Under the pieces are notes generated by a model that saw only the letters and a list, made by a program, of their open reading frames with translations, was not told the DNA's origin and did no database searches. Of a stretch of DNA of 20,840 nucleotides, positions 1 to 15,851 are shown one piece after another. Position 1 is the stretch's first letter. Every line of letters begins with the position of its first letter. The stretch lies in IMG/VR virus record IMGVR_UViG_3300020438_000344, positions 1 through 20,840 of that record; one strand, given 5' to 3'. This DNA is from a virus. Position numbers and translations under genes: made by a program.

Positions 1-3000
1 AGCTGCAATACACCAGCAGCACTTGTACTACCGGCACTAACTGTTAACGCTGGAGTTGTAGTACCGTTAGCAACACCTAGTGGTGCAGTTACTGTGACTC
101 CAGTAACCGTTCCAACGGTATTAGCGATCCATTGAAGGCCGGTAGTTTGCGTACTGTCAGCACTTAAAATATAACCATTAGCGCCGACTGTTAGCTTGTT
201 TAAAGTGGTTGATGCGCTGGCAGCAATTAAGTCACCTTTTGCATAAGAAGCAATATTTGTGCCGCCTCTTGCAACATTCAGCGTTCCACCCGTCATGTTA
301 TCTACATCACGGCACTCATTGCTAACTTCTTCCAACGCAGATTGAACGTTAGTTGAGCCAAGGTTTGCTGCAGGACTAAAGGCAACGTTGTTAGCTGTTT
401 GTGCTGTATAAGTGCTGCTAACGTCAATCTCAAGCCATGCAGCGCCGGTTGACAACAGCAAATCAGGCGGAGCAAGAGTAACAGTTGGAGCGGGTGACGT
501 TCCAGTGCCTGGCTCAGAAACAACCAAGTAATAATTGCTATTGCTGCTGCTTGAAGAGGGCAGGGCATTACCAACACTTAGGCCAATTGCTGAACCATCG
601 TTAGTGACAGAAGCAACTTGGTTTGTACTAGCGTCGTAAGTACCAGCAAGAATAATGGCACCTGCTGAAATACCAATTGACTGCCAAACGTTTCCGTCCC
701 ACAGGAAGAAATTTTTATCTAGTGGATTGAAATGAAGCTGTCCCGTAAACGCTGCTACTGGAAGTGTTTCGCCGATAGATGCTGTTGATTTGTTTGCAAG
801 CTTTCCTGCTGTAATTGCACCACCAGCAATTCGATCTGAAGCAAAAGCTCCAGTAGTTATTTTTGCAGCGTCAAGGTCGGGAATGTCTGTAGCTACAAGA
901 TCAACTGCCGCTGTGACAAGACCTTGTGCACTAAAACTAATACCGCTTTTTGTTGCAGCAGTAACGCTATTTGTAATTCCAATTGATCCACTGCTAACGC
1001 TAAGCCCAGCGCCTGGTTGAACAATACCTTTTGCTGTTGCAGTCGCATCAGGCAAATCAGCAGGCAAAAGTGCTCTAAATGTTGGAGCGGCGTCAACACC
1101 AGATGCAGGACCAACAAATACAGCGTTTGCTGCTTGCGTATCAAGCGTTAGCGTAATGTTTGCTGTAAAATCATCAGGATTATTAACCGCAATCGATAGA
1201 GGAGTTGACTCAGTTACCGTGACTGATTGAATTCCAGCTTCTTGCGTCCAAGCTGTTCCGCTCCAACGGTACGCAATACTTGTGCCCGTATTGTACCAAG
1301 CTTGTCCAACAAAAGCACCAGTGCCTGACGGCGTTGCAGTGCTTACTATGCAGGTTGATTGATCGCCTAATTTATCCTCATCTATTGCCGAATCGTTTAT
1401 CTTTGCGGTCGTAACTGCGCTTGATTGAATGTTAGCTGCAGCGACAATATCGCTTGCTAGTGTTGTAGCAAATGATCCCGTACCTGTGCCGGTTACCGCT
1501 CCAGTAAGCGTGATTGTTTGGTCGCCAGTGTTAGTGCCTGAGCTTGTTCCAGCAAAAGAGGAACCATCTGTCCAGGTACCAGTAGCAACAGCAAGATTGC
1601 CTAAACCCAAAGTGGTGCGTTGAGCAGCTATATTGACGTCATCCAGTAGCGCTCTTCCTGCAGTAGTACACGCAATTTCTTCAACCGTTCCAGCTCCTGC
1701 TGTACTGCGGCCAAGAATTATATTCGTAGATGTTGTGTTTTGAATCCTATCGTAAGTAATAGCGTCAGCTGCTACCTCAGTTGTTCCAATTGCCCCCGCT
1801 GTAATTGATGTCGCGAAAGATCCAGTGCCACTTCCGGTAACTGGACCGGTTAGAGTTATTGTCTGATCACCAGTGTTAGTACCACTTGTAGTGCCAGAAA
1901 ATGTGCCGCTTTGTGTGGCAAGTGTTCCTAGCCCTAGAGTGTTCCGCTGTTCTGCAGCGTTTGTACCACTAAGCAAAGCTCGACCAGAACTTGTGCAATC
2001 AATTTCTTGTATGTTTCCAGCGCCACTACTGTCACGTCCTAGTATTTTATCGCCTAAAGTTACGTCTTGAATCTTGGCATAATTAACTTGATTGTCGCCA
2101 ATTTTTGCTGTTTGGACTGCATTGCTGGCAAGAGCGTCTGCATCAACAATGCCATCAGTCAAGCTGGTAGCAAAAGAAGCTGTACCAGTACCAGTGACAG
2201 CACCGGTCAAAGTAATCGTTTGATCGCCGGTATTTGTACCGCTAGAAGTTCCTGAATGCGTACCAGCAAACGTTCCACTTTGTGTGGCAAGTGTTCCTAA
2301 GCCAAGTGTTGTACGTTGCGCTGCAGCATCCGCATCATCTAGCAATGCACGACCAGCAGTCGTACACGCAATCTCTTCAACTACACCTGCCCCTGCAGTG
2401 GAGCGTCCTAAAATAATATCGGTTGCACTTATGTCTTGAATTTTTGCATAAGTAACTGCGTCATCGACAATGTTTGCAGTGCCGACAATTGTGCTTGCTA
2501 AAGTTGTTGCAAACGATCCAGTGCCAGTGCCGGTGACAGCACCTGTAAGCGTAATGGTTTGATCGCCGGTATTGGTGCCGCTTGACGTACCACTAAACGT
2601 ACCGCTTTGAGTTGCAAGCGTTCCAAGCCCCAACGTTGTTCTTTGGGCAGAAGCGTCTACGTCGTCAAGTAATGCACGACCTGCAGCAGTCAGACTATAT
2701 GCAGCATAAGTGTCTGCACCAGTCAGATAAATACTCTGGTTAGCTGCAGTAGTAAGCCCTGCAATACTGTTTAGTCCAGCGTCAAACGCTTGAACATTGG
2801 TGCCAATAGCTAATCCAAGATTTGTTCTTGCGCCTGCAGCAGTAGACGACCCTGTGCCGCCATCTGCAATTGTTATATCGGTGATCCCAGTTACCGTTCC
2901 ACCGTTAATCGTGGCGGTAGTGATAGTTGCTGTACTAGCGGTCAAATTTGCGGCAACACTTGAAAAAGTAACGTTGCTGCTAGTGCCTAAATCTAGAGTT

Positions 3001-3371
3001 ACTCGCTGAACAGCTGCAGTAGCGTCATCTAGCAGGGCTCTGCCTGCTGCAGTACAAGCAATCTCTTCTACCGCTCCAACACCTGAAATACGTCCTAGGA
3101 GTTTGTTTGAAGCACTGACGTTCTGAATCTTGGCGTAGGTAACTGCATCGTCGCCTAAAGCAGTTGTCCCGATTTTTAACGTACTACTTTGATCTAGTTT
3201 GTCTAGGTCAATAGAGCTGGTGCTAATTAGGTCAAGCCCGGCATCAACTAGGTTTTTGACCGTTACCTTCTTGGTTTCAGACGCGGTAATGTCTGAAATA
3301 GGCAGAACATCGTTCTGAGCTACCCCTGCTTTGGTCAGCTCAGTGAGTTCGGTAATTCGCTGGTCAGCCAA
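1..3371 (-). CDS. Repeat-rich tail fibre protein, C-terminus cut by window edge
   Basis: The frame is open from 3371 to the left edge: 1123 codons plus two bases with no stop. I choose TTG at 3369-3371 as start because it gives an N-terminus reading (M)ADQRITELTELT, has GGAG 8 nt upstream, and no ATG or GTG lies between it and the in-frame TAA of the preceding gene. Residues about 70-650 hold repeated blocks built from AVTYAKIQ, GRALLDD, AAQRTTLGLG and GTNTGDQTITLTG. Two short motifs of the form GQ-x-W/H-[YF]N...W-x-G-x-[AV]W occur near residues 687 and 875; these are common in phage fibres. Later parts are rich in Gly, Thr, Ala and Ser, as expected for a beta-structured trimeric shaft. As the last gene after the J-like hub and two tube-like proteins, it is probably a tail or side fibre for host contact. 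No receptor-binding tip is visible, so specificity cannot be assigned. Confidence 0.85.
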   Translation of the reverse strand, partial: MADQRITELTELTKAGVAQNDVLPISDITASETKKVTVKNLVDAGLDLISTSSIDLDKLDQSSTLKIGTTALGDDAVTYAKIQNVSASNKLLGRISGVGAVEEIACTAAGRALLDDATAAVQRVTLDLGTSSNVTFSSVAANLTASTATITTATINGGTVTGITDITIADGGTGSSTAAGARTNLGLAIGTNVQAFDAGLNSIAGLTTAANQSIYLTGADTYAAYSLTAAGRALLDDVDASAQRTTLGLGTLATQSGTFSGTSSGTNTGDQTITLTGAVTGTGTGSFATTLASTIVGTANIVDDAVTYAKIQDISATDIILGRSTAGAGVVEEIACTTAGRALLDDADAAAQRTTLGLGTLATQSGTFAGTHSGTSSGTNTGDQTITLTGAVTGTGTASFATSLTDGIVDADALASNAVQTAKIGDNQVNYAKIQDVTLGDKILGRDSSGAGNIQEIDCTSSGRALLSGTNAAEQRNTLGLGTLATQSGTFSGTTSGTNTGDQTITLTGPVTGSGTGSFATSITAGAIGTTEVAADAITYDRIQNTTSTNIILGRSTAGAGTVEEIACTTAGRALLDDVNIAAQRTTLGLGNLAVATGTWTDGSSFAGTSSGTNTGDQTITLTGAVTGTGTGSFATTLASDIVAAANIQSSAVTTAKINDSAIDEDKLGDQSTCIVSTATPSGTGAFVGQAWYNTGTSIAYRWSGTAWTQEAGIQSVTVTESTPLSIAVNNPDDFTANITLTLDTQAANAVFVGPASGVDAAPTFRALLPADLPDATATAKGIVQPGAGLSVSSGSIGITNSVTAATKSGISFSAQGLVTAAVDLVATDIPDLDAAKITTGAFASDRIAGGAITAGKLANKSTASIGETLPVAAFTGQLHFNPLDKNFFLWDGNVWQSIGISAGAIILAGTYDASTNQVASVTNDGSAIGLSVGNALPSSSSSNSNYYLVVSEPGTGTSPAPTVTLAPPDLLLSTGAAWLEIDVSSTYTAQTANNVAFSPAANLGSTNVQSALEEVSNECRDVDNMTGGTLNVARGGTNIASYAKGDLIAASASTTLNKLTVGANGYILSADSTQTTGLQWIANTVGTVTGVTVTAPLGVANGTTTPALTVSAGSTSAAGVLQ
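1430..3160 (-). repeat. Tandem coding repeats in the tail fibre
   Basis: The fibre contains imperfect repeats of about 109-122 residues. The AVTYAKIQ-like motif recurs near 3121-3155, 2433-2467, 2065-2100, 1737-1772 and, diverged, 1397-1428. The TTLGLG block recurs near 2611-2645, 2281-2317, 1914-1950 and 1587-1621, with a diverged copy near 2987-3012. The GTNTGDQTITLTG block recurs near 2551-2582, 2211-2242, 1855-1883 and 1509-1537. The interval between the first two AVTYAKIQ copies is longer and holds unrelated sequence. Similarity extends to the DNA: copies near 2281 and 1914 share an uninterrupted stretch of about 20 bases, consistent with duplication or recombination between units. Confidence 0.85.
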
Positions 3372-3407: not shown

Positions 3408-4352
3408 TTAGTCCGTCACTTCCTGTAAAAGGAAATTCAGGCTTTGATCCAGTACAACGCGACCATCGTCTGCTTTCAAGATGTAGTCATCTGGTTTGCC
3501 AATCACTAGTCTAATTTGACCGGTTGTAACAAAATCAATAGTGCAAGAAACAATACCGTTTGCTTCTACAGAAATACCGGTTGAAGTTGTAATTCCTGTT
3601 GTTAGATAAAAAACGTTATCTACGTCTGGAACAATCTCTTTATCTGTTAAATACAAAGCCAAGTCAAACGCACATCCAAGGTCAAGTCTTTGGATTGTCT
3701 GCAGCATAATAATTGACGCTTCCTCAGTCTCTCTAGTTGTATAATCAAACGCACATTCGATACGACCACTCCCACTAAGTAGGCCAGCATTGTATTGTTG
3801 TTTATACTTGTCTGATAAAACTGTAGTGTCAATTGCGTCCCTAGACGTGTTAAATTCGTACCTAAAAACATTTCCAAGAACGTTATACCTAGTGTCAAGC
3901 ACGGCTAGGTTTACGTCTATAGGTTCGTTGGTAAAAGGATCTATTACAATTTCTGCTGACCTTTCATTGTTAATAGACGAAGTAAAATCTCTAAATAAAC
4001 GCAAACCGCCTACAGCGTTTACGTTTACAAAGGCTGAAAAATCGTCGGGTGTAAGACCGTTGTTGTAAAAAGAATTGTCGGATTGAGTAATTAATTGGTC
4101 GTCGCCTTGTGTAACTAAAAAATCTAACGTTCCAAAATTAGTGTCTGGAATAAAATCCAGTCGGCGGTTGTCGGTAGTAGAAAAAACTACCCTGTCGCCT
4201 GTAACCAAGTTGTCAACGGAGTCTTCGACACCAATCCTGTTTAAGGCAGTGTTGATGTCGTCAGGCGATACTGTCGTATTAAATCCGCCAAGCTCGCTAG
4301 CAGTACCACGGCGTAGGCGGATGTTGCCGTGATTGCCGAGGTAAAAAGCCAC
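3408..4352 (-). CDS. Tail-tube-like minor tail protein (long form)
   Basis: A 314-residue protein starting at GTG (4350-4352), 5 nt after the stop of the gene before it. Its parts line up with the major tail tube protein of this window: an N-terminal G-x-x-G-x-[IL] turn (residues 6-11), then a long insertion (about 18-160), then a strand pair RYEFNTSRDAIDTTVL (164-179) that matches the EITRDEIDVTT region of the tube protein. GSGRIECAF (194-202) and MLQTIQRLDLGCAFDLALY (216-234) match the next tube blocks. Within the insertion, VTGDRVVFS resembles FKVGDAVKFS of the tube insertion. I infer a tube-fold protein at the distal tail or a fibre adaptor, since it sits between the hub and the fibre. 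The family was recognised only by reading the sequences side by side; no database match was run. Confidence 0.7.
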   Translation of the reverse strand: MAFYLGNHGNIRLRRGTASELGGFNTTVSPDDINTALNRIGVEDSVDNLVTGDRVVFSTTDNRRLDFIPDTNFGTLDFLVTQGDDQLITQSDNSFYNNGLTPDDFSAFVNVNAVGGLRLFRDFTSSINNERSAEIVIDPFTNEPIDVNLAVLDTRYNVLGNVFRYEFNTSRDAIDTTVLSDKYKQQYNAGLLSGSGRIECAFDYTTRETEEASIIMLQTIQRLDLGCAFDLALYLTDKEIVPDVDNVFYLTTGITTSTGISVEANGIVSCTIDFVTTGQIRLVIGKPDDYILKADDGRVVLDQSLNFLLQEVTD

Positions 4353-4357
4353 TAGCT

Positions 4358-4774
4358 TTAACTAATAACGGTAATAAACGGACCATCAACCGTAAAGTTG
4401 AAAGGCACAACTGTCAGCTCACCAGAGCTAACGGAAACCGTTGCAGAAGTAATGTAAGCGTTAAATGTAATTGCGTTCGTGCCCGTTCCATCTACTTTTA
4501 AAGTTAGCCGCACTGTCCCTTTGGAGGCTGAACCTGTTGCCAAAACTTGGCTAAGCAACGCCCTAAAATCTGTACTAGCGCTACCTCCTTGGTAATACAA
4601 TAAAGTTGCGCTGCCGGTTGCGCCTTTAACTCCAGGGGTAAAAGTATTGACTCCACTGTCAATGGTATTGGTGCTTAACAACTCAACCGTAGTCTCTAAA
4701 GACCAGTCACGAACCTTTTCTATGGTGGAAGTGCCAACTAAAAGTGAGCCGTTACGCCCCGTGAAAAAGCTCAT
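4358..4774 (-). CDS. Tail-tube-like minor tail protein (short form)
   Basis: A 138-residue protein starting at ATG, 26 nt after the stop of the J-like hub. It has the tube-like layout without the insertion: GRNGSLL (6-12) flows directly into VRDWSLETTVELLSTNTID (21-39), then KGATGSATLLYY (50-61), LLSQVLATGSASKGTVRLTL (73-92) and a C-terminal pair ending FNFTVDGPF. Compare VREWNFEITRDEIDVTTIG and GSGSATVYF of the major tube protein. This is the minimal version of the fold, and is close to a compact siphovirus tube subunit in size. Its place after the hub, not before the tape measure, argues against it being the main tube. A role as a distal tube ring, or a collar joining hub and fibre, is an inference. 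Confidence 0.7.
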   Translation of the reverse strand: MSFFTGRNGSLLVGTSTIEKVRDWSLETTVELLSTNTIDSGVNTFTPGVKGATGSATLLYYQGGSASTDFRALLSQVLATGSASKGTVRLTLKVDGTGTNAITFNAYITSATVSVSSGELTVVPFNFTVDGPFITVIS

Positions 4775-4800
4775 GACGCTATAGGAACATTGCCACCATC

Positions 4801-7800
4801 TTAGCTCACCTCAAACTTGCTGCTACGAAAATCAGCAATGTGAGCCCGCGTTCCACCAGCTTCTTCAAAGCACGGGTACTCAACTGCTTTTACGCTTAGC
4901 TCCCCCTCTTCCTCAATGGCTAGCTCAGTAACCCTGAAAACACGTTTGTCTGGCTTGTCCTCACCCATTACAAACATCCAACCTTCATACTGCTGCGTTC
5001 CAGTAAACGCAGCTGTGCTTCTTCCATCATCAGAAGTCGTAACGGCAATCTGGTTTTCACTTGCCACTGTTCCGGTCGAAGGTTGATACAACAAAAAGTT
5101 AAAAGGCACATTTGAACCGACATCTTGAACCCCTTCTTCGTTAGCAGGAGCTAGCGGAGAGTTCAACGCCCCACCTGCCATCACCATCCCAGATGAGTAG
5201 TGATCCCAATTTTTAAGGCCAACGTCTACATAAATAAAATCTCCTGGCTCTAGTCCTGCCTCAGACGGCAATGTACGGAACTCAATGCCTTTGCGTATGT
5301 GACGACGCTGGTTGCAAAGGAACTTACCAAACATAATTGCTTGCTCTCTGCGCGTAACAAATTGGCTTAAGTCGAAGGTCTCCCGGCTGTTTTCATCACT
5401 TGCGGTTTTAGCTAACAACTTAACGTTTACGCTTTTATTGGCGGTAAAATTTTTAACGCTGCTAGAATCTCTGTACACAATAGACGCAATAAGATTTTCT
5501 GTGCTGTCTGTAGCATTTAAAAATTCTTCTTTGTATGAATCTTGCAAAATATTTCCAGTAGTAAAAAGCGCTGAAACGTCTACATTTATTGGAAGATCGT
5601 CACTGTCACTAAATTCTCCTGACTCGTTTACTGGAAACGCTGGCACTAAAGTGTCTTTACCATTTTTTCGCGCCAACTCCAACAAACTAAACGAAGCTGC
5701 ATTGACCCAAAATTCACGCCACGAACCAGGGTCTGCAATAACTCCATCCATAAACAATTTATTTTTTACGCAAAACGCTTTAGCTGTTTTTAAACTGTCA
5801 AAATCAATATTTTTTCTGGTAACATACTTGCCTACTCCATTTATTTTGTCGAGCAATGTGTCTACAAAAATATCTGGGGCGTAGCTACTAGAGGCTGTAG
5901 CTTCTTTAGGTGACTCAACTGTTCGGCATAATTTTCCTTTTTGCACCATTGTGCTTACACTTCGCAAATCCTGAATATTTTTGCCTGCAAAAACTCCTAA
6001 AGACATTGTCTGCATTCTTTTATACTTGCTCGAATAGTTTGAATCAAGTTGTTGCTCGGTTACTGCAGCTAATGCAATTTCCGGGCCGGATTCAAAACTA
6101 AATGCTACTTGAGTGTCTGAATTTACAGAGAACATGTCCCACTCATTAGTCAGATACGGACCGCGTTCTGCTTCGTTAGGATACCCAACCAAAAGACCAA
6201 TTTCTCGCCCAATAAAATTAATAGAGTTGGTTGTTTTACCTAAAGGTATTGTTGTAGCTTGGTCGGCATTTTCTAAAAAGAAATAACTTGTAAAGCTTCT
6301 AGTATCTAGTTCAGCGTTTACGTCAAAGACAGGATCAAATTTAAATTCCCATTCTGTTTGCAACTCACTATAAAAAATTATTTGCGTGTAAAAATCAGCC
6401 TCGCTGCCGTGCCGTACAGCAAACATGTGAGGGATTTCGTTCCAGGTGCCCTGCCCGGCTTGCCGATAAGCCATTTTAAAAAAGGCCATTCGACTTTTTA
6501 CACCGTTATCAGATTCGCTGTATCCATCAACTTTTCTGTCTCCGTATTTCTTCTGTCGCCCTGAAATGCGTCTAAATAGCTTGCTTTTAAATGAAAATGT
6601 TACTGCATTGCATGGGCTTACTGTGCTATACGTAGCCATCTCCGCCTTTACTAGACATTTTGTAAAAAAGTTATTGTCAAGACTATTCAGAAAACTATCG
6701 GGCCAATTCTCTAACATAACTTCAATAGTATTTAAAGCATCTTTTTTATCTCTAATAAGCCTTTTTAAATCTGACCTAATTTGTTTTGTTCCTTTGCGAT
6801 CTTTTATTTGCAAATCGTCTGGAACCTCCTCTAAAAAATCATCGAGTAAATCTATGTCAGCCTCAACAACAGCAATTGCATCTGCTCGCCTTCTACCAAG
6901 CAGTGTTGCTATGCGCTTGTTTATCTTGTTTATTTGTTTTTCTTCTGTCTTTTTGTTGCCTTCCATCAAGTCAAACGTTGCTTTTTCAAGACCTGTTTTT
7001 GTAGTCAACAATGTTCTTGTTGCGTTTTCACGATTTTCTTCGCTTTGATTTGCAAGCGCGTCTCTACTAATTTTTGTCCTTATGCCGTCGCCGTCGGTAC
7101 TCCCTTTATCTAGATTAGTGTTAGTGTTTATATCTATGTCTTGTATCTTTTGTTGAGTGTCTCTTAAATTGTTACGCCTATTACTTAATTTATCATCATC
7201 AAGAAAAACGTCTGTACTTTCTGTGTTTTGAAGACCCGTAAAATTAAACAAATTTACTACTCCGCGCGAGTCTTTGTACGCAAATGTATAATGGTGGCTT
7301 ACGCCTTCCTGAAGAAGGGGATTAGACAGGTCTTCCACACCTTTAAAAAATTCCTTTGTACTTACGCTGTTGTCGTCCGCGTTACGCTCCAAATTATCTA
7401 TTTGGCCAGTCGCTACACCCATACACGTTTGATTTTCAAAATTACCAGTAAACCGAAAATTTTTAAAAGGTGTTGGACTTGGTTTACCGTTTTCGTCTCC
7501 CCTGGCTTTGCTGTAATCTTCTATAGACTCGGTGTAGCGAAAAGTTCTATTAGGTATGTCATTGTCCGCTCCATCAAATACGCCAGCGTAAATATCTTCA
7601 ACAAGTCTTTTTAACGCTTTTTTCTGCTTTTTTGCTTGTTTTCTTATTTCTTTTGTTGTAATTGTTAGATCAATTGGGTTTCCTTCAGCGTCAGTGGGAT
7701 CCTCTGCCCCCACCTGCTCTCTAAGATCTTTGGTAAAATCAATAGACCCGCCTTTGGGAAAATATTCTACTCTTGGGCTCAACTCCACCGTACGTTCTTT

Positions 7801-9213
7801 TCCATCACCATTTTCAGGATCAAAATTTAAATCTACTGTTGCTGTGTATTCAGGATTCCATGTAACCTCCAGCTGGCCTGAAAAATTTATGTTCATATTT
7901 AAATCAATTGTCTCGCCATCAGCGTCTATATGTTCCAGGAGCACTACGTCTCGCTCCTCTTCCTCTCCGCCTTTTAAGATGTCCTTTGCCTCTTCAAATT
8001 TATCTTCAATAGCGTCTAATTCTTCTACTTTGACATTTAAAGGCGTTTTTTCACCGTACGGAGTGCTGGGTACCCTACCTTTTTCTATACATACAAATTT
8101 AGCCTGTACGTTATCGTTATCTGTTAAAATTCTGTCGTTTCCAATGTAGCCATCAAGCCTAAATTTAGCTGCACCAAGAATATAAGTGCTGCTAAAATCT
8201 AATGCTTCTAGCATCTGACGCCGCATATTTTCAGCAGTTTTTCTAGGTACATCGTCGTCTCTTTTTTTAGTTGTATCATCAAAATATAAAACAATTGAAT
8301 CATTTTCATCGAAAAAAACAGAGGTTTCACCGGCGTTTCTCCACAAATTGTTATTACCTTTATTACTTTGCATTTCAACGCCTATATTATGTTTTTCAGT
8401 CTTACCTTTTTTATCACGACTTAATACGTTTACGTTTATAGGAATTGAATCGTAAACCCCTAGGCTGGTAAAAGAAGAAGGTGTATAAGCCTGGCTGTAA
8501 CCCAACCTAGTATGCCTAGCTAATGACTGATCGTTACTTTTTAATTCTGTATTTAGACATAAAAAAGCTGGTTTATCGTCACCAGGCGTTAACAAACTTG
8601 GGTAACGAGTTTTGCCTGCAAAGCCATCCACAAAACTGTTAAATTTAGGTGGTTCGTTTAGTCCCTCAAATACATAAATACTTTTCCTATCTAAATCAGA
8701 AAAAGTTAGCTGACCAAAAGCTGTTCTTGTGTAATCAATTTCCTGAATCTGTGACGCACCAAGCGCCACTACTAATCGCATGAATTGAGATGATCCAAAG
8801 CTGTCTATTGCGGACCACAACAAAGAACCGTTTACACGCACATTACCCTTGGGGTTGTGTTCATTGTTTGTGTAGACAAGATTTAGTGGATCCCCGTATT
8901 TAGCAAGGTCTTGTGCGCTGTTGAAACCAAAACTTGGCGCAAACCTTTTTTGCCTATTTCGTCTGCTACCGGCATCCGGGACTTCTGGTTTAGGTGCTAA
9001 AAGTGCCGCTCCAACCTGGAATAAAATTCCTACAACCGTTAATATTATTGAAACAGTAACTGGATCAGGGCTAGGTCCATTACGAATATCTAAAGCAGTG
9101 CCGATTTTTGGATCGTTGTATTCCTCTTGAACAACAAGAAAATCAAGGTACTCTTCTTTGCTGACGCCTAGCGCTTCAATCAGCTGGTGCTCGTAGGGGA
9201 GAAGCTTACGCAT
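4801..9213 (-). CDS. J-like central tail hub / host specificity protein
   Basis: A 1470-residue protein, larger than lambda gpJ (1132 residues). It follows the K-like gene with a 1-nt stop/start overlap (TGATG). Residues about 51-73 form a hydrophobic segment ending in LLAPKPEVP, followed by a stretch ending in KYGDPLNLVYTNNE. This resembles the C-terminal end of lambda gpI-type proteins, suggesting a gpI tail fused to gpJ. Residues about 670-838 are charged and coiled-coil-like, rich in K, E, D and R. Near residues 1291-1340 there is a motif with repeated arginines followed by LEPGDFIYVDVG, typical of the phage-tail hub domain of J-like proteins (PF13550 type). The protein should form the baseplate hub that closes the tube and carries fibres. 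The coding region for about 6650-7650 is unusually AT-rich. Confidence 0.85.
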   Translation of the reverse strand: MRKLLPYEHQLIEALGVSKEEYLDFLVVQEEYNDPKIGTALDIRNGPSPDPVTVSIILTVVGILFQVGAALLAPKPEVPDAGSRRNRQKRFAPSFGFNSAQDLAKYGDPLNLVYTNNEHNPKGNVRVNGSLLWSAIDSFGSSQFMRLVVALGASQIQEIDYTRTAFGQLTFSDLDRKSIYVFEGLNEPPKFNSFVDGFAGKTRYPSLLTPGDDKPAFLCLNTELKSNDQSLARHTRLGYSQAYTPSSFTSLGVYDSIPINVNVLSRDKKGKTEKHNIGVEMQSNKGNNNLWRNAGETSVFFDENDSIVLYFDDTTKKRDDDVPRKTAENMRRQMLEALDFSSTYILGAAKFRLDGYIGNDRILTDNDNVQAKFVCIEKGRVPSTPYGEKTPLNVKVEELDAIEDKFEEAKDILKGGEEEERDVVLLEHIDADGETIDLNMNINFSGQLEVTWNPEYTATVDLNFDPENGDGKERTVELSPRVEYFPKGGSIDFTKDLREQVGAEDPTDAEGNPIDLTITTKEIRKQAKKQKKALKRLVEDIYAGVFDGADNDIPNRTFRYTESIEDYSKARGDENGKPSPTPFKNFRFTGNFENQTCMGVATGQIDNLERNADDNSVSTKEFFKGVEDLSNPLLQEGVSHHYTFAYKDSRGVVNLFNFTGLQNTESTDVFLDDDKLSNRRNNLRDTQQKIQDIDINTNTNLDKGSTDGDGIRTKISRDALANQSEENRENATRTLLTTKTGLEKATFDLMEGNKKTEEKQINKINKRIATLLGRRRADAIAVVEADIDLLDDFLEEVPDDLQIKDRKGTKQIRSDLKRLIRDKKDALNTIEVMLENWPDSFLNSLDNNFFTKCLVKAEMATYSTVSPCNAVTFSFKSKLFRRISGRQKKYGDRKVDGYSESDNGVKSRMAFFKMAYRQAGQGTWNEIPHMFAVRHGSEADFYTQIIFYSELQTEWEFKFDPVFDVNAELDTRSFTSYFFLENADQATTIPLGKTTNSINFIGREIGLLVGYPNEAERGPYLTNEWDMFSVNSDTQVAFSFESGPEIALAAVTEQQLDSNYSSKYKRMQTMSLGVFAGKNIQDLRSVSTMVQKGKLCRTVESPKEATASSSYAPDIFVDTLLDKINGVGKYVTRKNIDFDSLKTAKAFCVKNKLFMDGVIADPGSWREFWVNAASFSLLELARKNGKDTLVPAFPVNESGEFSDSDDLPINVDVSALFTTGNILQDSYKEEFLNATDSTENLIASIVYRDSSSVKNFTANKSVNVKLLAKTASDENSRETFDLSQFVTRREQAIMFGKFLCNQRRHIRKGIEFRTLPSEAGLEPGDFIYVDVGLKNWDHYSSGMVMAGGALNSPLAPANEEGVQDVGSNVPFNFLLYQPSTGTVASENQIAVTTSDDGRSTAAFTGTQQYEGWMFVMGEDKPDKRVFRVTELAIEEEGELSVKAVEYPCFEEAGGTRAHIADFRSSKFEVS

Positions 9214-9587
9214 CAGTCAATCCAAAAGTAGTAAGCAGAAACACGCGACGTTGGAACGCGAACAACCCGCTTGCCCGCAGAAATAAAAACAACGCTGCCG
9301 TTAACAACGCTACCTAAAGCCGGACTTGTTGGATTAGCCAGCAAAGCTACCGCTCCATGCTCCGGTAGTGTAAGTCGTCTTCCGGTTTGGAGTAACCACC
9401 TTGCAAGACGAATTGGCTTGAACGTATCTTGCGTGTAGGAGCCGTAAGCCCACTCAAATTTGCTGGAGTAATCGCTTAATCCCAAACGCTTGCGAACCTC
9501 GCATACAAGCTGAAAGCAGTCTGTGTAGCCTGTACCGTCAGCGAAAGACGCGCCCCACTGGTACTCCAAGCCAATTAGGTCATTCAT
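9213..9587 (-). CDS. NlpC/P60-like tail tip protein (lambda gpK type), possibly inactive
   Basis: A 124-residue protein whose ATG overlaps the previous stop by ATGA. Its position between L-like and J-like genes matches lambda K. The motif YTDCFQLVCEVRKRLG (residues 21-36) resembles the active-site helix of NlpC/P60 cysteine peptidases, with Cys24 as nucleophile. The family normally has a histidine beginning the strand after the GD-x-A-[VL] turn. Here the turn is EHGAVALL (76-83) and the next strand reads LGSVVNGSVVFIS with no histidine; the only His (77) lies before the turn. I therefore infer a structural or weakened version of the peptidase. The full catalytic set cannot be confirmed without a model. 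Confidence 0.7.
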   Translation of the reverse strand: MNDLIGLEYQWGASFADGTGYTDCFQLVCEVRKRLGLSDYSSKFEWAYGSYTQDTFKPIRLARWLLQTGRRLTLPEHGAVALLANPTSPALGSVVNGSVVFISAGKRVVRVPTSRVSAYYFWID

Positions 9588-10033
9588 CGCAATGACAGCG
9601 CAGATTCAAGCGGCAAAATACCAACGTTGTCTTCGTTTAACCGTTGAGCAGGAAAATTTGAGCCGACAGCATCTATTGCAGTATTAAAACGCAATTCAAT
9701 AGTGTTTTCACTAAAAGTTGCTCCAAGACCGATGTAAAACTCTGTAGAAATCAAACCTTCTACTACATGACCGGCACTAACAAAATTTGTGGTGAGAGTA
9801 AGTTGACTTCGCCTGTTGCCGTTGCCTGATTCGACAAGAGCAATAGCATAGTCTGTGGTGGGAAATAATATTTGAATCTGAGAATTATCGCCTCCTAACG
9901 TTGACACGCTGCCTTGCACCTGAAACGGAGCAAAATCAGTTGCAGCGGGAAAATAATTTTGTTTGACAATCGCTTCAGTTTGATTAACGGGCGTTAAAAA
10001 CATTTTTTGCATGATGCGAATTTCGTTTGTCAT
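9584..10033 (-). CDS. Minor tail protein, lambda gpL position (DUF1833-like)
   Basis: A 149-residue protein that overlaps the previous stop by ATGA (start 10033) and the next gene by 4 nt. By order it takes the place of lambda gpL, between the M-like protein and the K-like peptidase. It contains no cysteine at all, so it cannot carry the iron-sulfur cluster known from lambda-type gpL. The predicted beta strands and the NFPAQRL segment near the C-terminus fit loosely with DUF1833-type tail proteins, which often occupy this slot. The role is inferred from position: joining the distal tail tube to the hub. Confidence 0.6.
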   Translation of the reverse strand: MTNEIRIMQKMFLTPVNQTEAIVKQNYFPAATDFAPFQVQGSVSTLGGDNSQIQILFPTTDYAIALVESGNGNRRSQLTLTTNFVSAGHVVEGLISTEFYIGLGATFSENTIELRFNTAIDAVGSNFPAQRLNEDNVGILPLESALSLR

Positions 10034-10437
10034 GCTTGAAGTTCTCCTATAAAACTTACGGTTACTGTGCTTAAGTTGCTTTGAACGCTTTGCACTTCAG
10101 GCGGTTTTGCATAACGCCATTTTATATTAGCTGGGGCTTGAATATAATCTGTGACAGTTGATTCCATGCCTGCAAACACTGGGTCAGGAATGCTAAAACT
10201 AGTGTAAGTTCCATTTACCCCATCATAATGAGTTAAAATATCTGTCGTGGTTCTAGAATCTACTTCACTAGAATCTGGAATGTTTTTAAACGTAAGGTCC
10301 AAAGTGTAATTAGTTTTTCTGTTGCCGAATGCACGCCTAAATACCGCTCCAGATAACGACGTGTACGTCTTGCTCGGAATGTCACCCATCTTGAATTTAC
10401 GGGTGCTTGGCTTTATCTCAGGAAATGCGTCAGCCAT
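10030..10437 (-). CDS. Minor tail protein, lambda gpM-like
   Basis: A 135-residue protein directly after the tape measure gene; the start codon shares a base with the tape measure stop (TAATG). The segment SLSGAVFRRAFGNRKTNYTL (27-46) and the IPDPVFAG segment resemble the phage minor tail protein family PF05939 (lambda gpM), where a short FG-x-R core precedes a beta sandwich. Position after the tape measure supports this. It probably caps the distal end of the tape measure and starts tail tip assembly. The assignment rests mostly on order, with weak sequence resemblance. Confidence 0.6.
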   Translation of the reverse strand: MADAFPEIKPSTRKFKMGDIPSKTYTSLSGAVFRRAFGNRKTNYTLDLTFKNIPDSSEVDSRTTTDILTHYDGVNGTYTSFSIPDPVFAGMESTVTDYIQAPANIKWRYAKPPEVQSVQSNLSTVTVSFIGELQA

Positions 10438-13400
10438 TAGCGGATACCTACCCTAGAGCGTGTACGTGGGCTGTTCTGCATCTTATCTAATGTCATGCTC
10501 ATACCCTGCTTTGCGCCGTCACTAGCAGCCTGACGACGAGTTGTTGACATAGCAACCTCAAGCTGTTCACGACTTACAAATTCCGTTCCACCGATATTAG
10601 TCGTCTCGAAGGTGAAATTCATTTGTGGTGCGCCGACTCCTGCAGGTGAACGTCCCATCATTTGGCGCATGTCTTCATTGCGCATGATGCCGCCACTTGA
10701 ACCAGGGATAAACATCTCAGGTCCACGCTCTCCAACCATATAAGGACGACCAGCATTTACTGGACCGCCGCTTGCTTTACCAGCAATCAATGTTGGAGGT
10801 GCAAATTGACTTGGATCTGCGAAAAAAGTGCCCCCTTTCAAAGCATCTGGACCAGGAGAAACATTAATTTGGCTTCCAGCCTTGCTAGCAGCCTCTCCTC
10901 CTCCACTTGCTCCGGCAACTGCTCCCAACGCTTTCAGTATGGTCTGAAGAATAATCATTTGGATTTGTTGGGCAATAATGTCGGCAGCCATTGCAACAAA
11001 GTTTTCGCCAATAGTTTTAAACATGTCAGACAACGCTTGTTGCGTTGACTTGCTGCCGTTAATAACGTCTTGGAATGCAGTGCTAAATGCCGCTCCAATA
11101 TTATCTGCAACTTTCACAGCAACGTTTCCAAGCTTTGTCATCTCTGTTAGCTCGCCACGTAATTCAGCAACTCTGTCTTCAATAATCTTTCTGTCAGACG
11201 TGTCGCTCTTGCCTGGCCCTTTGGAAGCTTCGCCTTCTATTGCTTTCTTTTCCTGCTTAAGCAAATCAAGCCGTTCTTGCAATAATTGATTAAGGCCACT
11301 ATTTGCAGGCAAACGAAGTAGCTCAAGCTCAGCAATCTTTATTTGTTCATCTTTTTGTCTAATTAAAGAATCAACTTGTTTGTTGAATTCAACAATACGC
11401 TTGGCTTCTGAAGGAAGCACACCCTCCATCAACAAACGGTTGTACTCTTTAGATGCAGCAAGATTTGCTTCTTGGCTTTCGCGTATGTTCTTGATAGGAG
11501 CTACAGCATTTCTAATTGCGTCTGCTTGCCTTTTAGCTTCAGTTGCTTCAAGATTTGCAAGATTAGTTTTTCTTTCTTGATTTGCCAAAATTGTTTGCTC
11601 AACAGCAAAGTCTTGATTTTTAAGTTTAGATATTCGTTCTATAGTTTGCTCATATTTTGCTTCTATGCCAAGCTTTTGTGCTTCAACACTTCCAGCAACT
11701 TTACTTTGAGCTAACTGACGCTCCAGTTGTTCTGTAACGGCCTCTGCTTGTTGTTTTTGCTGCAGAAGTTGCTCAGCCTGTTTGCTTAGTTTTGCAGAGC
11801 CCTGCTCTATTTTTTTATTTTTACGGTCGATTGCTTCCTCGCTTTCTCGATTAATTTGTGCAATTTTATTATTAAATTCAATAAGATTATTATTCTGAAT
11901 TTTTTGCAAAGATCCATTAGTTTTTAAAAATTCACTTTTATTTTTATCAATGGCGTCTTCAGCTTTTTTGTTTTTAAGGCCAAGCTCTTGAGCAGCCCGT
12001 AGCTTCAGCAAGGTAACATAATCAGAATTAGTTAAATCTTTTTTCTGCGAAGCTAACGCAAGTTCAGTTTTTGTTATTGCAGCACTTTTTATGCCAAATT
12101 CGTTTAAAAATTTAGTAGTTTGTAATTGCTCAGATGTAGCTCTAGTTAGCCGTTCAGCCTCTGCAGTTTTTTGTTGGGCAAGTGTTATTAATTTAGCGTC
12201 AATATCGGCTATTTCATTTATCTCGTCCAAAGTATTACGGCCCAACCCGAGCGCTTCTCTTGCCTCCCTGCCAACGCTAAAACTTGTCAACTCGTTTCTT
12301 CTATCTTGAAGTTCTTTGGCCTCTGGAGTGTTTAAATTCAAGCCAACTCCTAGTTCATTTTGTACCTTAAGACTCTCTGCAAGAAACCCTGGAATACCTG
12401 CAAAAAACTTGGCTGCTGCTGTTTGCATTTGAGCCATTGCTTTTGAAAATTCATTCCCCAGATCTGTAGTTTCTGCACCAAAATTTTCAAGAGCAACCAC
12501 GCCTTCGTCTCCAACAGTTGCAGCTAAAAGTGCAGTTGCCGCCTCAAGAGCTTGCTGTTGCGTCCCAAGGGTTTCTATAGCTTGCAGAAGAGCACCGGTT
12601 TCAGTCCCAGCAAAACCTGCAGCTGTAGCCAAAGCTTCGATGTCGGCCGTAAGAGGATTAAGTGCCTGACCAAGCGTTGCACCGCCACTAACAATTTGAT
12701 CAGCAAATGCACCAAATTGGGTGCCAACCAAAGACAGCGCAAAACCCATCTGGCCGCCAATCATGCCGCCAGCAAAACCACCTATGCCGCCACCAATTGC
12801 CGCTCCACCTCCTTGCCCAAACAGCAGTGGGAACGCGCCACCAATAAGGCCGCTGCTGATCGCATTGTTCCTACGAGTTTTTTCATCAGCTTTTTGTTTT
12901 GCTATATCTTGTTCTAGTTTTTTAGCTGCCGTTAAGCCTGCTTTGCGCCTAGCTTCTATGCGTTTTTCGCTGTCTTCGCGTATTTTTAAATATATTTCTT
13001 CGGCATCTGTGGTTAACTGTATTCTACGATTTAACTCTTTGTCAAACCTGGCCCCTTCTACATTATCAGCCTTTATAGCCGCGCTAAGCTTTGTCTCAAT
13101 AGCGTCCATCTCTGCATCAATTCGTTTCTGAATTCCTCTAATTTTGTGATTATTTAATTCAATAAAAGCGCGACGATCAGCTTTATTTACTTTATTTGTA
13201 AGTTCTATTTTTTGTTGTGCAAGCCTTTGGACTTCTCTGCCTTCGGCAATAGCTTCTGACGCCAAACCAGCAGCTCTAGTCCTAGCCGCTCCAGCTATTG
13301 GATCAAATCCTGGAGCAGGTTCTGGACCAAACTTAGGCTGCCCGCGAAGATATGAACCAGCCATCGTAGTTTGTGCACCACGCTGCGTAGGGGCAGCGAG

Positions 13401-13931
13401 TTCAGCGTTATACGCTTTTAACGGTTCAGTTGATCTAGAAAGGTCTTTTGCAATCTGCTCTGCCTCATTAAAAAACTTATGCCAAGATGTTCTTGTGTTC
13501 AATGCTGAGACACTTATGCCTTTGGCTTGTTGAGCCGCATCTTCAAAAAATGCTTTAAAGGAATCTTGATTTTGTTGTTGGGTTTGCGTCAGCCTTTGTC
13601 CCCCAATAGAAGGGCCTTGCCTTGACCTTGCTTCATCAAGAAGTCTGTTCCGCTCTTTTATTTCTTTTTGATAAACTTGTTCGCTTTTTATTAAATCTCG
13701 CAAAGCGTCTTTAAACGGCTCTGTTCCGCGAGCAGCAGTATTGAAATTATTTTTAGCCTCAGATAAAGTTGCGCTAAGGTTGTTTAAATTAAATACAGTT
13801 GTATTTGCGACAGCACGCAAATCTTTGTTAGCAGACTCAACTGCCTCAGCAGTTCGTTTAATATCATTTTGAAGTTTTTTTAACTGCTCGCCGCCTTTAA
13901 CGGCAATGGCTATTTCAGCGTTGTAGGCCAC
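10437..13931 (-). CDS. Tail length tape measure protein
   Basis: A 1164-residue protein with a GTG start (13929-13931); an in-frame TAG lies just upstream and no early ATG exists, so GTG is the likely start. Long stretches of Lys, Glu, Gln and Ala suggest coiled coil (about 220-355 and 560-930). A Gly-rich hydrophobic region lies at about 358-408 and a second hydrophobic helix at about 975-1010, IIAQQIQMIILQTILKALGA. The end contains GGPVNAGRPYMVGERGPEMF, a strong signature of lambda-type tape measures. It comes right after the frameshifted chaperone pair and before the tail tip genes. It sets tail length, is bound by the chaperones, and is likely ejected into the host envelope on infection. 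Confidence 0.93.
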   Translation of the reverse strand: MAYNAEIAIAVKGGEQLKKLQNDIKRTAEAVESANKDLRAVANTTVFNLNNLSATLSEAKNNFNTAARGTEPFKDALRDLIKSEQVYQKEIKERNRLLDEARSRQGPSIGGQRLTQTQQQNQDSFKAFFEDAAQQAKGISVSALNTRTSWHKFFNEAEQIAKDLSRSTEPLKAYNAELAAPTQRGAQTTMAGSYLRGQPKFGPEPAPGFDPIAGAARTRAAGLASEAIAEGREVQRLAQQKIELTNKVNKADRRAFIELNNHKIRGIQKRIDAEMDAIETKLSAAIKADNVEGARFDKELNRRIQLTTDAEEIYLKIREDSEKRIEARRKAGLTAAKKLEQDIAKQKADEKTRRNNAISSGLIGGAFPLLFGQGGGAAIGGGIGGFAGGMIGGQMGFALSLVGTQFGAFADQIVSGGATLGQALNPLTADIEALATAAGFAGTETGALLQAIETLGTQQQALEAATALLAATVGDEGVVALENFGAETTDLGNEFSKAMAQMQTAAAKFFAGIPGFLAESLKVQNELGVGLNLNTPEAKELQDRRNELTSFSVGREAREALGLGRNTLDEINEIADIDAKLITLAQQKTAEAERLTRATSEQLQTTKFLNEFGIKSAAITKTELALASQKKDLTNSDYVTLLKLRAAQELGLKNKKAEDAIDKNKSEFLKTNGSLQKIQNNNLIEFNNKIAQINRESEEAIDRKNKKIEQGSAKLSKQAEQLLQQKQQAEAVTEQLERQLAQSKVAGSVEAQKLGIEAKYEQTIERISKLKNQDFAVEQTILANQERKTNLANLEATEAKRQADAIRNAVAPIKNIRESQEANLAASKEYNRLLMEGVLPSEAKRIVEFNKQVDSLIRQKDEQIKIAELELLRLPANSGLNQLLQERLDLLKQEKKAIEGEASKGPGKSDTSDRKIIEDRVAELRGELTEMTKLGNVAVKVADNIGAAFSTAFQDVINGSKSTQQALSDMFKTIGENFVAMAADIIAQQIQMIILQTILKALGAVAGASGGGEAASKAGSQINVSPGPDALKGGTFFADPSQFAPPTLIAGKASGGPVNAGRPYMVGERGPEMFIPGSSGGIMRNEDMRQMMGRSPAGVGAPQMNFTFETTNIGGTEFVSREQLEVAMSTTRRQAASDGAKQGMSMTLDKMQNSPRTRSRVGIR

Positions 13932-13960
13932 AGCCGATTTGCCCTAGTAGTTTCACCACT

Positions 13961-14496
13961 TTAGCGTCTACGACGCGCCTTATCCATTTCTTTCTGCTGC
14001 TCCTCGTTAATTACGTTGAAATAGGCGCTCCAACCAATCAATTCTTCTGGTGTCATCGTGGCGCGAACCTCTGACAAGCTCATGCCAAGCTCCTTGGCAA
14101 CGCCAAATTGCAGCATGAGCCAATTGTCCTTCCGAAGCTCAGCGCTTAGGATTTTGGGTCCATTTCAGCAACTTCATCGTCAGTAAGAACGCCAAGCATC
14201 AAAGCCTGCAAGTCTTTATCCTTAACCTCGTTTTTCAGCACGTCAATTTCGCCTGCATTAAACAACTTCTGACCGTTGGCATCCTGTGCCTTAGAAATCA
14301 ACAGCTGCAAAGCAAAAGCGTTGGCATCATCAGACTTAGCCTGCCGTTGAGCACGCTCACGCTCAGCCATTGTCAAAGGTGTCACATACATCTCAAATTC
14401 CGTTCCATCGGAAAGCTCTACTACTTTTTTTGCAGGCTCTAAGTTTGCAGCTTTACGAAGACGATCAATTGCTCGCAATGAAGATGTACCGGCCAT
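13961..14496 (-). CDS. Tail assembly chaperone, -1 frameshift product (GT-like fusion)
   Basis: The fusion is read from 14496 to 14152 in one frame (115 codons), slips back one base at CCCAAAA (minus strand, plus coordinates 14152-14158), and continues from 14152 to a TAA at 13961-13963. The added part is 63 residues: it begins ILSAELRKDNWLMLQF, includes MTPEELIGWSAYF, and ends in four arginines. The whole product is 178 residues. This is the organisation of lambda G/GT and of most siphovirus chaperone pairs, where the extended form binds the tape measure and recruits tube subunits. The second frame has an internal in-frame ATG (L-M-L-Q), but no good ribosome binding site, so slippage is the better model. 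Confidence 0.85.
14146..14496 (-). CDS. Tail assembly chaperone, unshifted product (gpG-like)
   Basis: A 116-residue protein starting at ATG, about 40 nt after a strong terminator. It begins with a basic helix (SLRAIDRLRKAANL), then EFEMYVTPLTMAERERAQRQ (residues 33-52), a pattern frequent in siphovirus tail chaperones, and an acidic end, DDEVAEMDPKS. It ends one codon after the slippery heptamer, so most ribosomes should make this short form and a minority the longer fusion. It is not expected in the finished virion. The match is by pattern and position before the tape measure. Confidence 0.82.
   Translation of the reverse strand: MAGTSSLRAIDRLRKAANLEPAKKVVELSDGTEFEMYVTPLTMAERERAQRQAKSDDANAFALQLLISKAQDANGQKLFNAGEIDVLKNEVKDKDLQALMLGVLTDDEVAEMDPKS
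14152..14158 (-). promoter_or_regulatory. Slippery heptamer for -1 programmed frameshift
   Basis: The minus strand reads GAC CCA AAA TCC TAA in the first frame. C CCA AAA fits the X XXY YYZ rule: both tRNAs can re-pair on CCC AAA one base back, after which the second frame is open for 63 codons. The first-frame stop is two codons after the last slippery base. Downstream, 31 nt away, an 8-bp inverted repeat (14113-14120 with 14078-14085) encloses a smaller 5-bp hairpin (14094-14106) that could act as a stimulator. Confidence 0.85.
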
Positions 14497-14534
14497 ACAA
14501 ATGATTGTGTATCCAATTACTGTAGCAGCACATT

Positions 14535-14565
14535 AAAAAAAGCCCCGGACAAACCAGGGCTTTTC
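14535..14565 (-). terminator. Intrinsic terminator after the major tail tube gene
   Basis: On the minus strand AGCCCTGG, a TTTGT loop and CCGGGGCT form an 8-bp stem with one T-G wobble, followed by a run of seven T (plus 14535-14541). An upstream AAAA can extend the stem. It lies 16 nt beyond the tail tube stop and before the chaperone gene, a textbook Rho-independent terminator shape. Confidence 0.88.
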
Positions 14566-14581
14566 TTGTTTTAATCGTAAA

Positions 14582-15352
14582 TTACGACTTGGCGAAATCG
14601 AAGGTTGGCGTTGTGGTGGGACGGAAGTTAATTTCGACAGACTGGGCGTCATCAGGGTTGATAGCCAAGCTTGCTGTAGTCAAGTTTGCTTCAAACTCAA
14701 TAGAACGACTCAGTGTGTCGTTGAGGCTGCCGCCGCTAAATACCTGATCGGTATAAAGCTTGAACTTACAACCAGTTTGAACACGTTGCAGCACGTCCTC
14801 AACCATACGGTTGCCTAGTGCATCGTCAGTGTCAGTGAAGTACACGGTTGCACTTCCTGAACCATCAGCAAAGCCTGCAATGAACGTTTTAAATGGAACG
14901 TACTGCCCAGGGGTAGCACCAATCGTTGTGACGTCAATTTCGTCACGTGTGATCTCAAAATTCCATTCGCGAACTTGCCCAACAGCTGAAAAAGCTGAAA
15001 ATTCAACTTGAAATTTGTTTGGAGCGACAGCAGTGCCGTCGTCTGTAATCGTAATCGTAGAACCGCCTGACGTTGCAGAAACCTGCATTACGCCTGTGCT
15101 TGCCGTATAAGCAATCACGTAATAAACCGTTCCAGCGGTAATGCCTGCAGGCAAAGTGCCCGAGCCTGCTGCACCTGTGGTGGTGTTAACTACACTAAAT
15201 TTGACAGCATCGCCTACCTTAAAATTAAGGTAAGTTGCAACTGTAAAATTGTCAGAAGCGACGGTAACATCACTTTCGCCAAACTGACCTAAAGTGCCAG
15301 CAGGTTTGTAGTACAAAGCACCTGAAGTGCCGGATAGAACGGTGGCGGCCAT
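14582..15352 (-). CDS. Major tail tube protein
   Basis: A 256-residue protein between the tail terminator and the chaperone genes, the standard place for the tube subunit, and the gene before a strong terminator, as for a high-copy product. The N-terminus has SGTSGALYY (7-15). Residues about 28-122 look like an inserted, Gly/Thr-rich beta domain, including LPAGITAGTVYYVI (67-80). The core resumes at VREWNFEITRDEIDVTTIG (127-145), then GSGSATVYF (164-172) and VLQRVQTGCKFKLY (187-200). The insertion would project from the tube as a surface domain. Two later proteins in this window share the core. No clear ribosome binding site is seen; the 67-nt gap before it holds a small hairpin at 15381-15393. 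Confidence 0.88.
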   Translation of the reverse strand: MAATVLSGTSGALYYKPAGTLGQFGESDVTVASDNFTVATYLNFKVGDAVKFSVVNTTTGAAGSGTLPAGITAGTVYYVIAYTASTGVMQVSATSGGSTITITDDGTAVAPNKFQVEFSAFSAVGQVREWNFEITRDEIDVTTIGATPGQYVPFKTFIAGFADGSGSATVYFTDTDDALGNRMVEDVLQRVQTGCKFKLYTDQVFSGGSLNDTLSRSIEFEANLTTASLAINPDDAQSVEINFRPTTTPTFDFAKS

Positions 15353-15419: not shown

Positions 15420-15851
15420 TCAAGAGATCACTGTTGCCACATACCCTGTGTCTATCTGCCCCATAAACATTGGAGCGTCCTCAGTAGCTGAAAACGTTGG
15501 TCCGTTAATGTCGCCAACACGGAAAAACACACCGCTGTTTGTTTTGGCCGTATTGTTCAACGTCTCCAATACGCTAACGGCAGTCGTTAGTAGCGTTTGA
15601 TTGCGGGCAGGGCCTTTACCCTTTTCCGTAAATACACGGATCACAACCGCACCACGGGCGTTGTCTACGCTGCTCGTTAGCGTTGCTTCGTTGGTAATAC
15701 CAAAAGTTACATTTACGCGGACGTACTCTGTCGTTGTGTTGGCCGGTACAGCAGTGATGTTGTCAAAAAAGACTGGTACAGCTGGCGACAAGCTGCCAAA
15801 AGCAGTTAAAAGCGGGTTTTCGACTGCAGCGCGGATAGCTTGATAGTTCAT
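15420..15851 (-). CDS. Tail terminator protein
   Basis: A 143-residue protein, start overlapping the previous stop as ATGA. Its sequence has the pattern of siphovirus tail terminators of the DUF4128/lambda gpU-like group: an N-terminal helix (AIRAAVENPLLTAF), EYVRVNVTFG (62-70 region), then RGAVVIRVFTEKGKG and a second helix with repeated Thr and Leu. It should form the ring that stops tube growth and joins tail to neck. Its place directly before the tube gene agrees. Confidence 0.78.
   Translation of the reverse strand: MNYQAIRAAVENPLLTAFGSLSPAVPVFFDNITAVPANTTTEYVRVNVTFGITNEATLTSSVDNARGAVVIRVFTEKGKGPARNQTLLTTAVSVLETLNNTAKTNSGVFFRVGDINGPTFSATEDAPMFMGQIDTGYVATVIS

Follow-up and report, generated by a model that had tools for sequence, protein, structure and literature searches.

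Why does one phage tail module encode three proteins of the tail-tube type, two of them between the tail-tip hub and the fibre? The question is raised by a 20,840-nucleotide stretch of viral DNA, here called the window. It represents the structural half of a siphovirus-like phage that has not been cultured, and nothing in the phage collection matches it at the DNA level. All of its genes are on the minus strand. The portal, major head, adaptor and closure proteins are encoded in it, and the tail genes are arranged in the order terminator, main tail tube protein (TTP), chaperone, tape measure, gpM-like protein, L-position protein, K-like protein, hub, TB2, TB3 and fibre. The tube-like proteins are TTP (14582-15352, 256 aa), TB2 (4358-4774, 138 aa) and TB3 (3408-4352, 314 aa). 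All three are minus-strand reading frames. Their coordinates and lengths agree exactly with a preliminary description of the sequence, and the gene order confirms its statement that two extra copies are placed between hub and fibre.

The main-tube slot, between the terminator and the chaperone and tape measure, is occupied only by TTP, which matches the PHROG major tail protein (E 1e-5) and is 69% identical to a protein of phage KBS-S-2A. The terminator (15420-15851, 143 aa) has a PHROG match (E 1.7e-11) and matches Pfam PF13554 above the cut-off. The chaperone (14146-14496, 116 aa) is assigned by PHROG (E 3e-4) and synteny, and the tape measure (10437-13931, 1164 aa) by PHROG (E 7e-9). The 214-base gap between these two genes (13932-14145) could accommodate an extension of the chaperone made by frameshifting, as for lambda G/GT. 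Next come a candidate gpM-like distal tail protein (10030-10437, 135 aa; PHROG minor tail protein, E 2e-19), whose family matches an S-H1 protein of Pfam PF05939, and a minor tail protein in the gpL position (9584-10033, 149 aa), whose family matches S-LBS1 A22 and Mic1_31 'Phage tail L'. The NlpC/P60-related, K-like tail assembly protein (9213-9587, 124 aa) belongs to a family matching Mic1_30, which itself matches Pfam NlpC/P60. The tail-tip hub (4801-9213, 1470 aa; PHROG tail protein, E 1.7e-11) matches a tail protein of Microcystis phage Mic1 over residues 1108-1444. TB2 and TB3 follow the hub, and the fibre gene (3-3371; PHROG tail fiber, E 5e-20) runs off the window after 1123 codons of its 5' part. 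Hub, TB2, TB3 and fibre are tightly packed, with gaps of 26, 5 and 36 bases.

TTP, TB2 and TB3 share a homologous tube core, and both the homology and the fold are well supported. The preliminary description had recognized a common order of core motifs, which is borne out. The GxxG start reads GTSGAL in TTP, GRNGSL in TB2 and GNHGNI in TB3. It is followed by a second motif (REWNFEIT, RDWSLETT and FRYEFNTS, respectively) and an ID-TT type block, then by a later strand (GSGSATV, TGSATLL and GSGRIEC), a helix and the last strand. The similarity exceeds chance by BLASTP, shuffles and profiles. Single-pair BLASTP gave E 9e-6 for both TB2-TTP and TB3-TTP, and the observed score was reached by 0 of 500 residue shuffles for TB2-TTP and 1 of 500 for TB3-TTP. 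The direct similarity of TB2 to TB3 is non-significant by BLASTP, and 213 of 500 shuffles reach its score; their relation is visible only via TTP and by profiles.

Single-family HMMs were built from the close members of each family only (E<1e-15), since profile drift was to be excluded. At E<1e-3, the TB2 and TB3 profiles each detected 60 of 64 TTPs, and the TTP profile detected 67 of 85 TB3s and 67 of 96 TB2s. Within the window, these profiles match only TTP, TB2 and TB3. Comparison of nine tail families by hhalign gave 97% for TTP-TB2 and 95% for TTP-TB3. TB2-TB3 reached 7-35%, or 58% (E 9.6e-5) with other alignments, and the control families (hub, K, L, gpM-like, chaperone and terminator) gave about 1% or less with everything. 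The homology extends to known major tail proteins: TB2 matches PHROG 10528, a major tail protein family (E 5e-6), and cultured major tail proteins are matched by the TB2 profile (E down to 4e-22) and the TB3 profile (E down to 1e-10). A sequence search of the PDB gave no meaningful match, and a search of NCBIfam gave none.

AlphaFold models of TB2 and TB3 were made from family alignments. Their confidence is moderate (TB2, pLDDT 68 and pTM 0.59; TB3, pLDDT 58 and pTM 0.52). The order of strands and helix in them, and their matches to solved tube proteins, correspond to the tube fold, namely a beta-sandwich that is flanked by a single helix and bears a long loop. At the top of the list for the TB2 model stand tube-fold rings from phages, GTA, contractile systems and the T6SS (Hcp); the matches include lambda gpV, YDC107, GTA, R4C, monocin and Hcp, with Z up to 10.7 and rmsd from 2.5 to about 6 Å. 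The TB3 model finds the same class of matches, led by the YSD1 and Chi tail proteins (Z 7.9, rmsd 3.2-3.5 Å over 110 residues), which carry insertions, like TB3. A Z near 8 is middling alone, yet the tops of both lists are tube-fold, in line with the sequence evidence. Two of the checks that the preliminary description had proposed agree with it: the profiles detect one another across the three families and place TB2 in the PHROG major tail protein, and the predicted structures of TB2 and TB3 match solved tube-fold rings.

The three proteins differ in what is added to the core. In TTP, an inserted domain (residues ~14-118) precedes the tube core (residues ~119-256). TB3 has an inserted domain at residues ~14-152 and, in the family alignment, a conserved C-terminal tail of about 28 residues (~287-314). 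TB2 is a plain paralogue without insertion. Long N-terminal insertions in TTP and TB3 and none in TB2 are therefore as first described, but no homology between the two insertions can be detected (hhalign ~1%), and a common inserted domain is unsupported. The TTP inserted domain is a mobile decoration domain. Residues ~25-106 recur in a protein of about 200 aa encoded just downstream of the fibre in loci L065, L070, L073, L077, L082, L201 and L202. In TB3, similar periodic L..(E/Q)..D..L motifs occur in the insertion (LVTQGDDQLITQSD) and in the C-terminal tail (ILKADDGRVVLDQSLNFLLQE), and the insertion motif recurs in L208:2223-3347 (LVTQNGDNLITQSGD). These motifs are possibly docking peptides.

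Gene duplication had been suggested as the origin of the extra copies. The paralogy of all three proteins stands, whereas a duplication in this lineage is not evident. In a tree of the core, made by a quick method from few columns, TTP, TB2 and TB3 each lie on one side of a starred branch and have long stems. Since each forms its own long-stemmed clade, the split is older than the sampled group; on this tree, a recent duplication in this genome is rejected by the separation of the three. The old split may go back to the TTP of this lineage or may include the import of a tube gene from another phage.

The TB2/TB3 pair is more general than one genome, beyond what could be seen from the window. 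In IMG/VR, 582 of 593 stretches matching TB3 patterns encode a TB3 relative. TB2 directly precedes TB3 in all 109 distinct TB3 genes of the fetched loci, and the gene before TB2 is the hub in 97 of them, the gpM-like gene in 8 and the contig end in 4. The gene after TB3 is the fibre wherever a neighbour was recognized (88 of 88); the other 21 end there or show no recognized gene. Both genes are present in 118 of the 119 loci in which this hub family occurs and the sequence continues for at least 1.5 kb past the hub. The exception is L116, where a more extended stretch reveals, at that position, a protein of 374 aa whose TB3 core has diverged (E 5.9e-14). The fibre N-terminus is the best conserved part examined, with a mean top frequency of 0.88 over its first 10 residues, declining to about 0.4-0.6 by residues 130-200.

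A tblastn search with three TB3 queries found no TB2-TB3 module in cultured phages, in which relatives of TB2 occur only as main tube proteins. The major tail proteins of S-H1, MED4-117/184, phi3LM21 and DSL-LC06 are such relatives (28-30% identity), and unlike TB2 they occupy the slot before the chaperone and tape measure. In Synechococcus phage S-H1, the main tube slot contains two tube-type genes side by side (L004:32532-32948 and L004:32951-33373), both annotated as hypothetical. Bacterial genomes gave 17 pattern matches, none of them confirmed, in a pattern-based search that may miss distant members. No description of the pair was found in open-licence papers.

Although TB2 and TB3 are kin of the tube, they vary with the tip genes and not with the tube genes, and therefore belong to the tip module. 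Across the loci, identity to the window separates into a block of tube genes and a block of tip genes. TB2 and TB3 sit apart from the TTP gene, and in L010, L012 and L154 the tube block has been replaced (terminator 32-34% identical where present, chaperone 26-31%, a short TTP in exchange) while the gpM-like, L, K, TB2 and TB3 proteins of the tip are retained at 58-78% identity. L123 is the reverse, with 77-82% in the tube block and 23-33% in the tip. The identity of TB2 and TB3 tracks that of the gpM-like, L and K genes (rho 0.50-0.70) and does not track that of the terminator, TTP and chaperone (rho -0.53 to 0.16, n 9-18). No p value is attached to these correlations, because the loci are related; this relatedness, and the small number of values for the tube genes, were counted against placing the two proteins in tip rings. 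KBS-S-2A shares the TTP family, yet its hub and tip are of the lambda-J type and it encodes only a single tube-like protein. In L124, lambda-type tip families follow the tape measure instead. Synteny and co-variation with the tip genes thus favour the tip role suggested in the preliminary description, and membership in the tip is supported by this linkage.

What the two proteins may do there can be judged from known tails. The preliminary description took a single tube protein together with a distal tail protein to be the siphovirus norm, which is too simple: T5 p140 and T4 gp48/gp54 are extra tube-fold rings (PMC10038345, PMC8718954). The tube of T5 terminates in p140, an undecorated duplicate of the tube protein that lies beneath the collar bearing the fibres (PMC10038345). 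This collar is p132, which has an Ig-superfamily fold, surrounds p140 and holds the side fibres (PMC10038345). Distal tail proteins such as lambda gpM and its likes form a tube-fold ring at the junction of tube and hub (PMC10721106). TB2 resembles the tip component p140 as a tube paralogue without decoration, whereas TB3 is decorated. However, p140 is a single gene with two tube domains per chain, forming a trimeric pseudo-hexameric ring; TB2 has one domain, and here two single-domain proteins are encoded in a row between hub and fibre. T4 gp48/gp54 are two extra tube-like rings between tube and hub, but they are baseplate proteins of a myophage. The gpM-like protein is a different sequence family (hhalign below 1% with TTP, TB2 and TB3). 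Its gene precedes L in most contigs and lies between hub and TB2 in L048, L050-L055, L060, L116, L123 and L128. The cultured phages Mic1 and S-LBS1 have several copies of the family, some after the hub. Since this gene can precede or follow the hub, the order of the rings cannot be read from gene order alone.

In our view, with a probability of roughly 0.6, TB2 and TB3 form additional tube-fold rings in the tail tip, TB2 plain and TB3 decorated and tailed, and connect the tube with the side fibres. They are old TTP paralogues, now fixed parts of the tip module. Each would assemble through its tube beta-sandwich into a distal ring, probably of six copies, that adjoins the gpM-like ring and the hub. 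TB2 would form a plain, undecorated ring, as p140 does in T5. The ring of TB3 would be decorated, with the inserted domain and the conserved C-terminal tail offering a docking site to the N-terminus of the fibre, the product of the next gene, and the pair would thereby link the tube to the side fibres. TB3 may be the likelier dock, being decorated and tailed and encoded next to a fibre with a conserved N-terminus. The position in the virion and the docking of the fibre are what we infer, as were the 'distal tube rings or fibre collars' of the preliminary description. The moderate confidence of the models, the unsure guidance of gene order to place and the Ig fold of the T5 collar were counted against this reading. 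Going further, a tail-tube gene could have been copied and the TB3 copy have become the fibre-anchoring collar itself, so that in this large uncultured group tube-fold rings take the place of the unrelated Ig-fold collar of the T5 type; we regard this extension as rather doubtful.

The two proteins could instead serve only as rings of the tube lumen, as initiators or adaptors that, like T4 gp48/gp54, would lie between the main tube and the next ring, here TTP and the gpM-like ring, and take no part in holding the fibre. Their tube fold would fit this, gene order need not reflect place in the virion, and their cores are acidic about like that of TTP (mean net charge -6.6 for TB2 and -8.4 for TB3 vs -8.4), which would suit a DNA channel. 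However, their genes adjoin the fibre in every contig with a recognized downstream neighbour and co-vary with tip genes, and TB3 has a conserved insertion and tail beyond the core, so that a purely luminal role seems unlikely. An outer collar around the distal tube, outside the lumen, is less likely again. It would share with T5 p132 the anchoring of side fibres at the tail tip, and the genes do lie between hub and fibre, adjoining the fibre. However, p132 is an Ig-superfamily protein, whereas the cores of TB2 and TB3 are tube-type by sequence and model and homologous to the tube protein itself, and tube domains are known to form rings of tube diameter. Finally, chance or convergence among small beta-rich proteins, to which the non-significant TB2-TB3 similarity might point, is highly improbable, as the profiles cross-detect while control families are silent and the folds agree, and control families and shuffles rule chance out for all but TB2 and TB3 compared directly.

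TB2 and TB3 are thus probably specialized tip rings that help to hold the fibre, because the same pair stands in the same place throughout a large environmental phage group. Two further tube-type genes are a fixed part of the tip module in this abundant group, of which no cultured member was found here. The 'major tail protein' label that metagenome annotation places on genes of the TB2 and TB3 type can name the wrong gene. The theme of extra tip tube rings, seen in T5 p140 and T4 gp48/gp54, is extended to a pair encoded next to the fibre, and the pair gives a testable proposal for fibre attachment in such phages.
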